Origin: a virus | Strand: one strand, 5' to 3' | DNA: 20,216 nucleotides | Virus record (IMG/VR): IMGVR_UViG_3300009080_000078 | Coordinates: 1 to 20,216 of that record | Shown: positions 1,312 through 12,168 of the stretch, one piece after another | Position numbering within the stretch: the first letter of the stretch is position 1 | Layout: each line of letters begins with the position of its first letter | Position numbers and translations under genes: made by a program | The notes under the pieces: model-generated | What the model was told of the DNA's origin: nothing | Databases searched by the model: none | The model's input: the letters and a program-made list of their open reading frames with translations, nothing else

Positions 1312-3309
1312 TTATTCGAAGAAATATGCTCCTTCTATCTCTAACATTGATTCATTGAATACATTCTCCACAATATTCAGCTTGTCATAATCAAATCCTA
1401 CTTGATCACACAAATGCTTCAATGGATTGTTATCAATGAATATAGTCTTGTAAGCTCGCTTGATACATCCTTGCAACAAGTGAACACTAGCAGCATCACA
1501 ACGGAAGCAATCATGAATACTTACAAAGCCCTTGATTCCAGCTTTCTTAGCTTCAACTGCCACAGTTCTTGCTATCAAAGCATCTAAGCCTTGAATGAAG
1601 TTGACTAGGAACGATGTTGCAAACCTCTCAACATCATACTCATTAGTCTTTATGGTAATGCCTGTGTTATCTATCTTACTACCAAACTCAAGTATCTTTT
1701 GTGCATCATACCTGATCTCAGTATAATCACGAGTTATCTCCTCCATACGATAACTAGCATGATCTACAACAGTACCATCAATATGTGTATAGATGATATG
1801 TGTCACATCATTACTCAAACACATCTCCTCAATGTGTTCTGCAAAGGCTTGTTGGAAGTTGGTTATCTTAGCTCCTAATACTTTCTTAACAGCATTGATA
1901 ACAAGGTCAGCACGTTGATCATCATCTAGATCAGGATGCAGACTCAACAGCTTACTCATTAACACCTTACATCCTTTAACAGCAGGACGACCACCACTAT
2001 ACATGATAGCCATGTAAGCCTTCTTAATATCTTCCCTGAGAATACGATGATCTAACTTCTCAACTGTCAGGTGATATGGATCAGGTATCCTTGTGCTACT
2101 AAAACCACAGGCTTGCAGTAATCCTAACTCATGGAACAAGATAGCATATATCTGTGTACCAGATGACTTAGCATCATCACCTATTGATATACGGCAGTCT
2201 ACACTACCTTTAACAATGATCTGAGCTATATCAATACACAGTCTCACATACATGAATGGTGATTTAACTTTACAGTCATCACCCTCATTCAGATATTGTG
2301 CAAGTGCCTGAGAAGGCTTGATAGCTACGTTACGGATATAACGCTCATCAAGATACTTGTCATCACTAACACAATCTGCTAACTCTACAAGCAACTTCTT
2401 ATGAGCATATGATCCAGCATGTACAATGCTTACATTCTGTGAAGAATATAAAGCACGATTCATATCATCACCTTGTGGGTTAACACCGTATGTAGCTCTG
2501 AAGTACATACGTCCACGGTCATCCATATCATACTCACTATAGTATGAACTTGATGGATGTAGAGATTGTGCTCCTTTCAATGTTGCAAATGCTGACAACC
2601 AAAGCTCATGTTTATATGTTAGCTTCTTAGTTGCAAGTACCACATTCATCATATGCTCATTAGTAGAGTATTCTGAACTCTGGAGATAATCACATGCTTC
2701 AACAGCTAAGATACTTGCAGCAACCAAGTTCTTCTTGAAGTAGTGAACACGACGATCAGCAGGATCACTTGATGTAAGTGGGCTGAACTTCATTCCCTTC
2801 ATTATCAAGCTCTTGAACTTAGTGCTAGGGATGAAGCCATAATCTTCATCCTCTTGCAAGAAGCCACAAGTAGCAAGATACTCCCTTACTGGTTGAGATG
2901 CTATCTCTGTCTCTTTCCAGTTAAACTTATCACGATTCTTCTTAATGAAGTAATCAAGATACTCGAAGTACTCAGCCTCAAGATGATGTAGTTCATCAGC
3001 TTCTTTGCAGTTATATATTGTGGCAAATACTGCCAAGGCCATTATCTGCCTTTCTACAATATTGAACACAAAGAACTCCTCTCTCCTCATAATACTCACG
3101 AAGATGCTAGGTACAGTAGATTGAATCATGAACTCATAGTTCTTCTCTACTGTTGTCTCCTCGAAGTGTATGGTACGAAGATCATCAACTTCGATCTTGT
3201 TGATCTTGTTGACTTTGTTAGCTGCTTTCGCAGACGCCAGTGTTAATGCTTTCATAGGTGTTGCTCCTTTAGTTACAGTTGAAGTTACAGTGTTGAATAC
3301 ATTATTCAT
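1312..3309 (-). CDS. Single-subunit (T7-type) DNA-directed RNA polymerase
   Basis: This is a phage-encoded RNA polymerase of the T7/N4 family, expected to transcribe phage genes from its own promoters. In 665-residue numbering: the DxxGR motif is at D263-R267 and leads into NPQGDDM; motif A is GDDAKSSGTQIY with D379 at the place of T7 D537; motif B has R425, K429 and Y437 with the same 4- and 8-residue spacing as T7 R627, K631 and Y639; motif C is HDCF with D600 matching T7 D812. The DxxGR-to-motif-A distance (116 residues) also equals T7's. The N-terminal region is about 160 residues shorter than T7's and the A-to-B segment about 44 shorter, nearer to the compact N4-type enzymes. Two in-frame starts have good ribosome sites: ATG 3309 (GGAG, 7 bases) and ATG 3255 (AAAGGAG, 8 bases). 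I give the longer. It is the last gene of the operon starting at 4270. Confidence 0.93.
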   Translation of the reverse strand: MNNVFNTVTSTVTKGATPMKALTLASAKAANKVNKINKIEVDDLRTIHFEETTVEKNYEFMIQSTVPSIFVSIMRREEFFVFNIVERQIMALAVFATIYNCKEADELHHLEAEYFEYLDYFIKKNRDKFNWKETEIASQPVREYLATCGFLQEDEDYGFIPSTKFKSLIMKGMKFSPLTSSDPADRRVHYFKKNLVAASILAVEACDYLQSSEYSTNEHMMNVVLATKKLTYKHELWLSAFATLKGAQSLHPSSSYYSEYDMDDRGRMYFRATYGVNPQGDDMNRALYSSQNVSIVHAGSYAHKKLLVELADCVSDDKYLDERYIRNVAIKPSQALAQYLNEGDDCKVKSPFMYVRLCIDIAQIIVKGSVDCRISIGDDAKSSGTQIYAILFHELGLLQACGFSSTRIPDPYHLTVEKLDHRILREDIKKAYMAIMYSGGRPAVKGCKVLMSKLLSLHPDLDDDQRADLVINAVKKVLGAKITNFQQAFAEHIEEMCLSNDVTHIIYTHIDGTVVDHASYRMEEITRDYTEIRYDAQKILEFGSKIDNTGITIKTNEYDVERFATSFLVNFIQGLDALIARTVAVEAKKAGIKGFVSIHDCFRCDAASVHLLQGCIKRAYKTIFIDNNPLKHLCDQVGFDYDKLNIVENVFNESMLEIEGAYFFE
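3264..3270 (-). promoter_or_regulatory. Second ribosome binding site inside the polymerase ORF
   Basis: AAAGGAG on the minus strand, 8 bases before the in-frame ATG at 3255. It reads as codons 13-15 of the long ORF, yielding TKGA. The same AAAGGAGCAACA block precedes an in-frame ATG in the neighbouring 228-residue gene. Translation from here would give MKALTLASAKAANKV and a 647-residue enzyme. Confidence 0.6.
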
Positions 3310-3333: not shown

Positions 3334-4020
3334 TTAGAAAGGTAAAACTTCACGGTTATCTTCAATCCAATTGTAGAGTTCAACATCCAACTCCTTATCT
3401 TCCATCTCCCTCCTGAAGCTATGTTCCCAGACTCTGATCTGATCAGCTATACCATCATCTTCAGCCCAAGGTGCTCCAAGCTCATAGTGAATGCCACCAC
3501 AAGCATGATCCTCAGCTTGCGTTAGATACCATTGCTCATCGATATACTGATTCATGTCATCAATGATATTAAGTATTGCCAAGCGTTCCTTGGTATTCTC
3601 AATACCAAATTCCCTACGCAGACAATCTTCTGTCAAGATAGACCACATGTAGTTAAGTGTTAAGTTATTCATAGTTTGATCCTTAAGGTATACTGTAAGA
3701 TGAACATCATTCTCAACTTGTTTGATCTTCCAATCTATTACACTACTCACACACTTCAACCTCTCAATAAACTGACACTCTATGTAAGGGCGAACACTAC
3801 TAACAGCAGTGCCATAAATAGCCCATAACTCCATCTTACCATCAATGCTACCAATCTTCTTGATATCCAACAGTTCTTCTCCTAGTATGATGCAAGTGCT
3901 ATTCTTCAGGGTGTTGTCAGCTTTAGCTTGAATGTTGCTCAGTTTGCGAATGAACATGGTTGTTGCTCCTTTAGTAGTTACAGTAGTGTTGGTAGTACAG
4001 GTGTTAGTTACAATAGTCAT
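3334..4020 (-). CDS. Unknown 228-residue protein upstream of the RNA polymerase
   Basis: I do not recognise this protein. It is mixed alpha/beta in appearance, with no signal peptide or membrane segment, and ends in an acidic, tryptophan-rich stretch (about residues 165-228; WAEDDGIADQIRVWEHSF). It has a CGG and several histidines around residue 170 but no clear metal-site spacing. The start at 4020 overlaps the preceding 53-residue gene as TAATG and has AAAAGGA upstream. A second in-frame ATG at 3957 has a stronger AAAGGAG site and would give MFIRKLSNIQAKA. The polymerase gene follows 24 bases after its stop, so the two are probably co-expressed. A partner or regulator of the polymerase is a reasonable guess from position only. 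Confidence 0.8.
   Translation of the reverse strand: MTIVTNTCTTNTTVTTKGATTMFIRKLSNIQAKADNTLKNSTCIILGEELLDIKKIGSIDGKMELWAIYGTAVSSVRPYIECQFIERLKCVSSVIDWKIKQVENDVHLTVYLKDQTMNNLTLNYMWSILTEDCLRREFGIENTKERLAILNIIDDMNQYIDEQWYLTQAEDHACGGIHYELGAPWAEDDGIADQIRVWEHSFRREMEDKELDVELYNWIEDNREVLPF
3966..3972 (-). promoter_or_regulatory. Second ribosome binding site inside the 228-residue ORF
   Basis: AAAGGAG on the minus strand, 8 bases before the in-frame ATG at 3957. The flanking text TGTAACTACTAAAGGAGCAA closely matches TGTAACTAAAGGAGCAACA before ATG 3255 in the polymerase ORF, so the leader block appears duplicated. Confidence 0.6.
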
Positions 4021-4181
4021 TACTTCATATCCTTTTCATTACATACATTAGCAACATACGTGTTATGTGCATGAGCATCATAACACACAATAACATCATT
4101 ATCATTACCACTAATAACGAGCATTGCAAATAGCGTCACGGCTATTATGAGTGTGAGTAAGACATACATTATCTTAGTCAT
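4020..4181 (-). CDS. Small membrane protein, 53 residues
   Basis: The ATG at 4181 gives MTKIMYVLLTLIIAVTLFAM, a strongly hydrophobic segment of about 18 residues, then LVISGNDNDVIVCYDAHAHN and a polar tail with two cysteines, ending NEKDMK. It is probably a single-pass inner-membrane protein, with the basic N-terminus in the cytoplasm and the tail in the periplasm. The ribosome site is AAGGTG about 8 bases upstream. It overlaps its upstream neighbour and its downstream neighbour by TAATG, so all three are likely translationally coupled. Family unknown. The chain of matched signals argues that it is real despite its size. Confidence 0.65.
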   Translation of the reverse strand: MTKIMYVLLTLIIAVTLFAMLVISGNDNDVIVCYDAHAHNTYVANVCNEKDMK

Positions 4182-4270
4182 TACTTAGTCACCTTACGTA
4201 GAGTGTTAATAACAACAACACTAATTGGATAAGACGCAACAACACACATAGCCAAGATTGCAATAGTCAT
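4181..4270 (-). CDS. Tiny membrane peptide, 29 residues, first gene of the polymerase operon
   Basis: The ATG at 4270 follows TTAAGGAGAAACAT, one of the best Shine-Dalgarno sites in the left half of the window. The product, MTIAILAMCVVASYPISVVV followed by INTLRKVTK, is one hydrophobic segment with a basic C-terminus. Its stop overlaps the next start as TAATG. Its function is unknown. It could be a membrane-active peptide or mainly a leader that couples translation of the operon. Its reality rests on the ribosome site, the hydrophobic profile and the overlap. Confidence 0.6.
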   Translation of the reverse strand: MTIAILAMCVVASYPISVVVINTLRKVTK

Positions 4271-4284
4271 ATGTTTCTCCTTAA

Positions 4285-4321: not shown

Positions 4322-4343
4322 AAAACCTGAGTATATAGCAAAA

Positions 4344-4359
4344 GAGTCTTAAGAGACTC
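4344..4359. other. Short hairpin in the polymerase operon leader
   Basis: GAGTCT and AGACTC form a 6-bp stem around a 4-base loop. On the minus strand TTTTGC follows, making it a weak attenuator-like candidate ahead of the ATG at 4270. Confidence 0.35.
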
Positions 4360-4381
4360 CTTATACCAGACACCCATAGTC

Positions 4382-4441
4382 GGACACATACTGTATTTTT
4401 ATTTTTATTTAGGACACACACCGTATTTATAAAAATTTTAC
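4382..4441. repeat. Two imperfect 30-base tandem repeats starting GGACACA
   Basis: GGACACATACTGTATTTTTA at 4382 and GGACACACACCGTATTTATA at 4412 begin units of 30 bases. A shorter GGACACACG follows at 4452. The tandem layout in a promoter region suggests protein-binding sites. Confidence 0.45.
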
Positions 4442-4693: not shown

Positions 4694-4773
4694 CTTTAGG
4701 TCACTCCGTAACAAATATAGATTATAAACAAAAGAAAGAAGAAGAAGAGCTTTCTTTTTATAATATTGAAATG

Positions 4774-4803
4774 GGAAAAGCTCCTTTTGGAGGGAGCTTT
4801 TCC
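4774..4803 (-). terminator. Strong hairpin, likely late-operon terminator
   Basis: GGAAAAGCTCC (4774-4784) pairs perfectly with GGAGCTTTTCC (4793-4803) over 11 bp with an 8-base loop. The 3' arm carries the T-run (CTTTTCC) in either direction. It lies 130 bases beyond the last gene of the late block. Confidence 0.55.
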
Positions 4804-4911
4804 TTATTTCATAAGTTACAATATTGTTAAAATACTATAATAGTATTGTTCACTTTTTTATTTAAAAGCTTTTTTAAGGCTCTTTTTCACTCATTTTTCC
4901 CAAAAATAGTT

Positions 4912-4931: not shown

Positions 4932-5189
4932 TTACTTTTGAGCGGCTTTTTGCAGTAAAACTTCCAGTGCGCGAGAGGTAACTTCTGCAGAATTCTGGCT
5001 TGCAATCAAAGCATCATCAGCAGTTTGTTGTGCTACAGCAATTTTCTGATCTTGTACAGCTTGTTGTGCAGCAACTTTGTCACGATAAGAAACAAATTCA
5101 CCTTGAACCTTTTCTACGTCACCGTTAGTTGCACAGCCAGCCAAAACCATAGTTGCTACCAGAGCCATTGCAGTCATAAATACTTTCAT
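4932..5189 (-). CDS. Lpp/OprI-like outer-membrane lipoprotein
   Basis: This 85-residue protein has a basic start (MKVF), a hydrophobic core and a lipobox L16-A17-G18-C19. Lipidation at C19 and an Ala at +2 predict sorting to the outer membrane. The mature part (67 residues) is Ala/Gln-rich with heptad-like spacing (QQAVQDQKIAVAQQTADDAL) and is probably a coiled coil. It ends RALEVLLQKAAQK, much like the murein lipoproteins OprI and Lpp, whose final Lys is joined to peptidoglycan. A C-terminal Lys (K85) is present. Being phage-borne, it could alter the envelope during infection, serve as a spanin-type lysis partner or block superinfection. The sequence does not decide between these. A TCGACC promoter-like element lies directly upstream, so it may have its own transcript. 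Confidence 0.8.
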   Translation of the reverse strand: MKVFMTAMALVATMVLAGCATNGDVEKVQGEFVSYRDKVAAQQAVQDQKIAVAQQTADDALIASQNSAEVTSRALEVLLQKAAQK

Positions 5190-5259: not shown

Positions 5260-5898
5260 TTAAAGGAACAGTGCAATCAGCCCGACTGGAAGAATTTCCA
5301 AGAAGAACGAGCCAATGTTTTTGGGATAATAGTGGAAGTCAGCACTCTCGCTGGCTTTAGCCACATACTTATCCATCATTTCTTTATGCATAGCTGCTTG
5401 GTTAGTATCTCCCATTTCAGTATACATAACCCAATACTTTTGGTGTACTTCAGCCATTTTCAAGTTCTGACACATAGCAGACTCAAATACAGTAGAACCA
5501 CCTGCACTAACAGTAGAACCAGAAGCACCCTCTTGACAAGACTGAGGGAACACTCCAGCAGCAGATGAAGCAGCTACATCTTTATTATTAGATGCGTCTA
5601 CAAAAGTGTCAGTAGTAATATCAATAGAACTACTAGAAGAAGAACCAGAGCTAGAGCCGGAAGCTGCACTGGAACCTTCTGAGATAGCTTGTTGAATTTG
5701 CTGCTGCTTTTGTTGTTGCTCTTGTTGCTGTTGTTGTTGCTGCTGTTGTTCAGCAGTGCTTCTACTATTACCATTGTTGCCATTGTTGCCGTTATTACCG
5801 TTATTTAGTCCTGGAGGTATCTCAAATGGTGGTACAGCATAACTAACTGCTGAAACAGACATGAAGATACATACAACCAACATCTTTACAAGTTTCAT
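5260..5898 (-). CDS. Secreted Gln/Asn/Ser-rich membrane protein, unknown function
   Basis: This 212-residue protein starts MKLVKMLVVCIFMSVSAVSY, a typical Sec signal peptide likely cleaved near residue 21. The mature part holds NNG repeats (about 32-44), a run of nine Gln with more Gln to residue 69, a Ser/Gly/Ala-rich linker (75-91), a region with two Cys (121 and 143) that could form a disulfide, and a helical stretch with HKEMMDKYVAKA. The last 17 residues (SFFLEILPVGLIALFL) are hydrophobic, suggesting a C-terminal membrane anchor. The periplasm or outer face of the inner membrane is its likely site. The start has AGAAGGA 5 bases upstream. I know no homologue. Its place beside a lipoprotein suggests a lysis, superinfection or envelope role. 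Confidence 0.75.
   Translation of the reverse strand: MKLVKMLVVCIFMSVSAVSYAVPPFEIPPGLNNGNNGNNGNNGNSRSTAEQQQQQQQQQEQQQKQQQIQQAISEGSSAASGSSSGSSSSSSIDITTDTFVDASNNKDVAASSAAGVFPQSCQEGASGSTVSAGGSTVFESAMCQNLKMAEVHQKYWVMYTEMGDTNQAAMHKEMMDKYVAKASESADFHYYPKNIGSFFLEILPVGLIALFL

Positions 5899-7290: not shown

Positions 7291-7307
<17 letters not shown>
6807..7307 (-). CDS. Small tail-associated protein (MALPSSG type)
   Basis: The start MALPSSGELGFDDIANQL followed by PDSLISIANFHGKW matches the N-terminal pattern MALPSSG-(I/L)..DI...L...isl.dfyGk seen at the head of many phage tail fibre and tail-tip proteins. The remaining 100 residues are rich in Gly, Asn and aromatics (NVAGYFEGDYNGVQIDQLRY) and look like a beta-sandwich, possibly a surface or carbohydrate-binding domain. 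It has two Cys (C29 and C63). The ribosome site is GAGGAG with 7 bases of spacing. It overlaps the end of the giant fibre gene by 17 bases. A fibre accessory or tip protein is likely. Confidence 0.65.

Positions 7308-12168
<4,861 letters not shown>

Follow-up and report, generated by a model that had tools for sequence, protein, structure and literature searches.

Two candidate membrane micro-genes ahead of the RNA polymerase gene in a Chaseviridae-like phage

The window, a 20,216-nucleotide stretch of viral DNA (IMG/VR record IMGVR_UViG_3300009080_000078, positions 1 to 20,216), reads on its minus strand from late genes through an AT-rich gap of 660 bp (4931-4271) and two very small ORFs to a 228-codon ORF (4020-3334) and then a single-subunit RNA polymerase gene of 665 codons (3309-1312). 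The two small frames, ORF29 (4270-4181, minus strand, 29 codons, MTIAILAMCVVASYPISVVVINTLRKVTK) and ORF53 (4181-4020, minus strand, 53 codons, MTKIMYVLLTLIIAVTLFAMLVISGNDNDVIVCYDAHAHNTYVANVCNEKDMK), are each predicted to encode a single-span membrane micro-protein, with one hydrophobic 19-mer per ORF (mean Kyte-Doolittle value 2.53 in ORF29 and 2.77 in ORF53). Exact TAATG overlaps join ORF29 to ORF53 and ORF53 to the 228-codon ORF, and the start context ATGACTA recurs in successive ORFs. The ribosome-binding site of ORF29, AAGGAG at 4277-4282 (minus strand), lies 6 nt before its ATG at 4270. The original prediction had described two TAATG-joined ORFs here, each with one hydrophobic segment, and a good ribosome site on the first, and all of this was verified. 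It had also held both to be too short for standard gene callers; given the length limits of such programs this is true of ORF29 (90 nt with its stop), but not of ORF53 (162 nt). The gap between the late and early regions also holds a strong hairpin at 4773-4804 (14 pairs) with a T-rich tail on the plus strand, readable both ways.

Frames as short and AT-rich as these, and without homologues, might be chance openings in a non-coding AT-rich leader. We consider this very improbable in view of three results: the rarity of such a chain in shuffled sequence, the codon usage of the two ORFs, and the recurrence of similar ORFs in related loci, described below. When positions 4360-4018 were shuffled 20,000 times with dinucleotides preserved, a two-ORF chain abutting the fixed start of the 228-codon ORF arose in 0.08% of shuffles, and a chain with both ORFs hydrophobic in 0.01%; a chain was defined by ORFs of at least 25 and at least 40 codons, junctions of -8 to +15 nt, and a ribosome site on the first ORF. 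Codon log-odds, trained on the window's other genes and compared with dinucleotide shuffles, gave z scores of 2.64 for ORF29, 1.74 for ORF53 and 3.05 for the two together (p=0.002), and the proposed frame outscored the other five. The coding score of ORF53 by itself is modest. Taken together, ORF29 and ORF53 very likely exist as genes, and they are probably the first genes of the early operon.

Homologues of the two ORFs were detectable only in one near-identical strain, IMGVR_UViG_3300009079_000001 (56,758 bp), which has about 99.3% DNA identity over the shared region. Both ORFs are unchanged in that strain and the polymerase differs at only seven sites, so the two are too similar for the comparison to test selection on ORF29 and ORF53. 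Protein searches with ORF53 and the 228-residue protein found no match among known phages and only the near-identical strain in IMG/VR, and comparing the region with known phages at the DNA level gave no match either. Rfam gave nothing at the gathering score, its four listed matches to the region being at chance level. Pfam and PHROG identified no functional domain in either ORF. ORF29 had no PHROG match, while the weak match of ORF53 to phrog_27458 (E 0.039), a family unrelated to that of T7 gp0.5, does not appear in 23 related phage records except that of the near-identical strain, and we do not rely on it.

The polymerase (PF00940, E 1.7e-11; phrog_414, E 4.9e-53) places the phage. Its best matches are all Chaseviridae, at about 32% identity, with IMG/VR contigs at 36%; it had no match in bacterial and archaeal genomes, and another scan with a polymerase profile yielded no additional relative close to the window. 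Judged by this gene, the phage is a divergent member or a sister of the Chaseviridae. Chaseviridae genomes are about 52-56 kb, compared with 56,758 bp for the near-identical contig, the window itself being a 20-kb piece. In the Chaseviridae early region (Carltongylesvirus, Loessnervirus, Yushanvirus) a homologous polymerase is likewise preceded by a variable slot, and the polymerase operon begins just inside the genome end, a long terminal repeat (about 3 kb) having its start shortly ahead of the operon. The window holds one assembled copy of this region and a candidate end-marking element at 4339-4366.

This leader element (ATAAGGAGTCTC followed by a T-rich stretch, minus strand) lies 93 bp ahead of ORF29 and is predicted to mark the left physical end of the genome. 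Its consensus, (T)AAGGAG[T/G]CTC and then a T-rich stretch, stands ahead of the early genes in nine relatives, L017 (position 3160), L018 (5810), L045 (5251), L051 (5240), L103 (2868), L104 (2284), L019, L047 and L049. Seven genomes have a single exact copy each, and nine others have none. In Cleopatravirinae the equivalent, aligned by eye, is AATACGGTCCCT, which lies 4-9 nt from the start of the record in Mangalitsa, 4HA13, Y2 and PM1. The terminal repeat of Y2 (2,608 bp) starts exactly at the record start, as does the identical stretch in PM1, and Mangalitsa, 4HA13 and Myduc carry PhageTerm terminal-repeat annotations. Myduc begins with CGGGAGAGTAGGAGTCCCATAACCTTTTC, intermediate between the two forms. 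As equivalents of the element mark record or terminal-repeat starts in known Chaseviridae, the window's left physical end appears to lie near 4365, which would make ORF29 and ORF53 its leftmost genes. Such a conserved element would mark the genome end and delimit the early operon in Chaseviridae. It may be a terminase cut region or a transcription signal. ICTV lists the Chaseviridae polymerase promoters as unidentified (PMC12842549). We have for now rejected the element as a general phage promoter, given its single copy in each of the seven carriers, and likewise AATACGGTCCCT, which is present once, or twice where the record duplicates the end repeat. The element is often accompanied by a small hairpin and a T-run. 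Just upstream of it, at 4389-4436, the near-identical strain differs within an AT-rich repeat by several substitutions and an insertion of 34 nt.

This position bears on whether the micro-proteins could instead be small holin-like or antiholin-like lysis proteins adjoining the end of the late region. Both have a single hydrophobic span, and the late region ends just upstream on the same strand. However, the ORFs are downstream of the gap, a terminator-like hairpin and the predicted genome end, and belong to the early operon, whereas in the relatives the annotated holins are part of the late region, ahead of the gap. A lysis role is therefore highly unlikely.

The slot between the element and the polymerase varies among relatives. 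It is empty in L017, L018, L019, L103 and the Cleopatravirinae examined; Spp001 has a 119-aa gene in it, L048 a 113-aa gene and L043 a 197-aa gene. The 114-aa slot gene of L049 (5171-5515) has a weak ADP-ribosyltransferase match (ART-PolyVal, E 6e-5, below the Pfam cut-off) and could plausibly encode an early host-takeover enzyme. L047 has a 54-aa ORF and a second small ORF, L046 a 38-aa hydrophobic ORF and a 337-aa gene, L045 a 65-aa ORF, L051 a 26-aa hydrophobic ORF, and L099, L100 and L104 a 50-aa hydrophobic ORF with a 133-aa gene. The presence of different genes in different relatives points to a variable accessory early-gene site. The window's own micro-ORFs are in none of the Chaseviridae compared.

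The original prediction had proposed looking for hydrophobic ORFs in the same interval of related phages, and they do recur, unrelated in sequence. Sixteen leaders were scanned for ORFs that start with ATG, span 24 codons or more, and have both a ribosome site and a hydrophobic segment. Such ORFs are present in the window and in L046, L045, L051, L099 and L104, representing five lineages, and in none of the other ten loci, two of which are Cleopatravirinae. From shuffles, 0.03 loci would be expected in total, with the window itself accounting for about half; this figure is optimistic as the criteria were picked after examples had been seen, though the margin is still large. No homology was detectable among the slot micro-proteins. 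The 50-aa ORF of L099, L100 and L104 has dN/dS values of 0.17, 0.20 and 0.13, with 8/11, 10/16 and 15/19 of the differences at third positions. This purifying selection shows that in that lineage the micro-ORF is a gene.

The exact overlaps, the repeated ATGACTA and the position directly ahead of the polymerase operon could also mean that ORF29 and ORF53 serve as leader peptides: translating them would set or time translation of the 228-codon gene and the polymerase, and the peptide sequences would be irrelevant. The original prediction had included translational control of the polymerase among its suggestions. The downstream genes, however, have strong ribosome sites of their own. Within the 228-codon ORF, another start that looks stronger lies at codon 22 (3957), behind AAAGGAG in the context AAAGGAGCAACAACC, and the polymerase ORF has a second start at codon 19, preceded by AAAGGAGCAACACCT. 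These two sites are near copies of each other, and no other exact copy of the pattern occurs in the window. The 228-codon gene thus probably starts 21 codons downstream of the TAATG and encodes 207 residues. If translation really begins at the inner starts, ORF53 is coupled through the TAATG at 4020 to nothing more than a threonine-rich leader of 21 codons. The overlap claimed earlier is exact at the upstream start, but strict coupling of the micro-ORFs to the 228-codon gene is doubtful. The 80-nt start regions are no more structured than their shuffles; together with the separate ribosome sites, this weakens the case for control of polymerase translation, an idea that has little support. Leader peptides would also have no need for strong hydrophobicity in both ORFs, and the same-slot analogue is under amino-acid selection. 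We regard the leader-peptide explanation as unlikely.

The near-identical start shared by the 228-codon and polymerase genes (AAAGGAGCAACA..ATG; 3955-3973 and 3253-3271, minus strand) sits 18-21 codons inside an open threonine/asparagine-rich leader, and T/N-rich N-termini are also found on the polymerase ORFs of many relatives (L013, L043, L047, L048, L051). The 228-residue protein has no homologue beyond the near-identical strain, and its AlphaFold model has a pLDDT of 36.7. No relationship was detectable between its gene and the slot genes of L046 and L043, which are related to each other.

By the positive-inside rule, the charge asymmetry around the two spans, which is opposite in the two proteins, predicts an N-in/C-out orientation for ORF53 and N-out/C-in for ORF29; the topology analysis proposed with the original prediction thus yields two single spans of opposite orientation. 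ORF53 carries a 31-residue tail holding Cys33 and Cys47. A single-sequence AlphaFold model gives a confident helix at residues 2-25 and a low-confidence hairpin containing both cysteines, which may form a disulfide. It seems likely that both are early inner-membrane proteins.

A membrane micro-gene ahead of a phage polymerase is not without precedent: T7 gene 0.5, H4/4 gp1, JSF7 and several Chaseviridae-like contigs share the arrangement. The 65-aa protein of L045 matches phrog_21816, phrog_25167 and phrog_19839. Its homologues in Schitoviridae (VCO139, Pollock, FSL SP-058) are among the early genes at the left end, and those of VCO139 and Pollock precede RNAP1. In Autographiviridae, Alteromonas phage H4/4 opens with a homologue (gp1, annotated as 'containing one membrane domain') that overlaps gp2 by 1 nt, gp2 being followed by the RNA polymerase, and in JSF7 an L045-type homologue directly precedes the polymerase. 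ORF53 resembles this N4-like family (phrog_21816, phrog_25167), including H4/4 gp1 and the JSF7 protein, in its N-terminal span, its short two-cysteine tail and its place ahead of an RNA polymerase. It lacks the family motif YQ..C..I..GI.R..I..NG.C.V, however, and its profile match is 3 bits, over the span only. T7 gene 0.5 (phrog_16572) similarly encodes a hydrophobic micro-protein of 47 aa; it is one of the early genes at the left end, stands before a single-subunit RNA polymerase and overlaps the next gene, as the window's micro-ORFs do, but has no sequence relationship to ORF29 or ORF53 detectable by PHROG or blastp, and in T7 more genes, the kinase among them, separate it from the polymerase. 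ORF29 and ORF53 are orphan members of a recurring but uncharacterised arrangement.

The window's micro-genes lie at a predicted leading end and next to the polymerase gene, and similar placement is seen in phages of three families with a single-subunit polymerase. This would suit proteins that help the genome to enter by holding the incoming DNA or the transcription machinery at the membrane, the anchoring role suggested in the original prediction. Many relatives have no such gene at all, however, and neither sequence has a DNA-binding or polymerase-binding feature, which makes a role in genome entry quite unlikely.

Small early proteins acting at the envelope are known from other phages. T4 Spackle and Imm act in superinfection exclusion, and Spackle is periplasmic with a disulfide (PMC7677548). 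PhiNM1 Gp11 is a small membrane early protein that blocks cell-wall synthesis in S. aureus (PMC11237401). ORF29 and ORF53 are like Imm and Spackle in being small, probably early, envelope proteins, but have no homology or family match to them in Pfam or PHROG. Spackle, moreover, is helical, cleaved and 75 residues long, whereas the span of ORF53 looks uncleaved and carries a tail of 31 residues.

The reading we favour is that ORF29 and ORF53 are real early-operon genes whose inner-membrane products act early at the host envelope, and we put the probability of this whole reading at about one half. They would be the first two genes of the early operon, about 90 bp inside the probable left physical end, in the variable accessory slot before the RNA polymerase. 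Host polymerase would transcribe both and, as the first genes to enter, they would be expressed at once after infection. Their products would be two single-span inner-membrane micro-proteins of opposite orientation, with ORF53 exposing its short two-cysteine tail to the periplasm, and could either exclude a second infecting phage or disable an envelope process. Proteins that are early, membrane-bound, periplasm-exposed and lineage-variable fit the pattern of envelope-directed early effectors such as Spackle, Imm and Gp11. By that analogy, a role at the envelope or in superinfection exclusion is a tentative assignment, with chances slightly short of even.

The analysis demonstrates the anatomy of the ORFs, the non-random chain with its coding signal, the variability of the slot, the repeated occurrence of hydrophobic micro-ORFs in it and selection on one analogue; membrane insertion, early timing and function are inferred. 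The non-random chain, the coding signal, the opposite charge asymmetry, the helix model of ORF53 and the genome-end element all favour our reading, as do hydrophobic micro-ORFs placed first in the slot of four other lineages, one of them under purifying selection, and the small membrane proteins ahead of RNA polymerases in Schitoviridae and Autographiviridae. It is weakened by the restriction of ORF29 and ORF53 homologues to the near-identical strain, the lack of a functional domain, the z score of ORF53, and the empty slots of L017-L019, the nearest relatives by polymerase. Of the original picture of early, envelope-acting membrane micro-genes, the part that stands is that they are real, tightly packed and of membrane type; early action at the envelope is plausible.

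This gives the two orphan ORFs a place in a pattern that recurs and can be tested, in which the polymerase operon of Chaseviridae-like phages opens with a tiny membrane gene and a related gene family is present in the early regions of N4-like and T7-like phages. Genes of this sort are small and evolve fast, and most have not been studied. More speculatively, phages with their own single-subunit RNA polymerase might in general open the left-end early operon with a fast-evolving, unrelated membrane micro-protein serving one common envelope task. If so, that task would fall right after DNA entry, for example shutting out a second phage or ensuring that the rest of the genome enters. The lack of detectable relationship among the slot micro-proteins weakens the case for a shared function, and we think this generalisation doubtful.

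Three minus-strand genes across the gap also drew our attention. Two of them close the late region: 4932-5189 is a small lipoprotein-like gene with the lipobox LAGC, and 5260-5898 encodes a secreted-looking protein of 212 residues that contains stretches of GNN and of polyglutamine and ends in a hydrophobic C-terminus. The third, at 7291-12168, encodes a tail-fibre-like protein of 1625 residues in which TAFV modules recur and collagen-like G-X-Y repeats run over long stretches.
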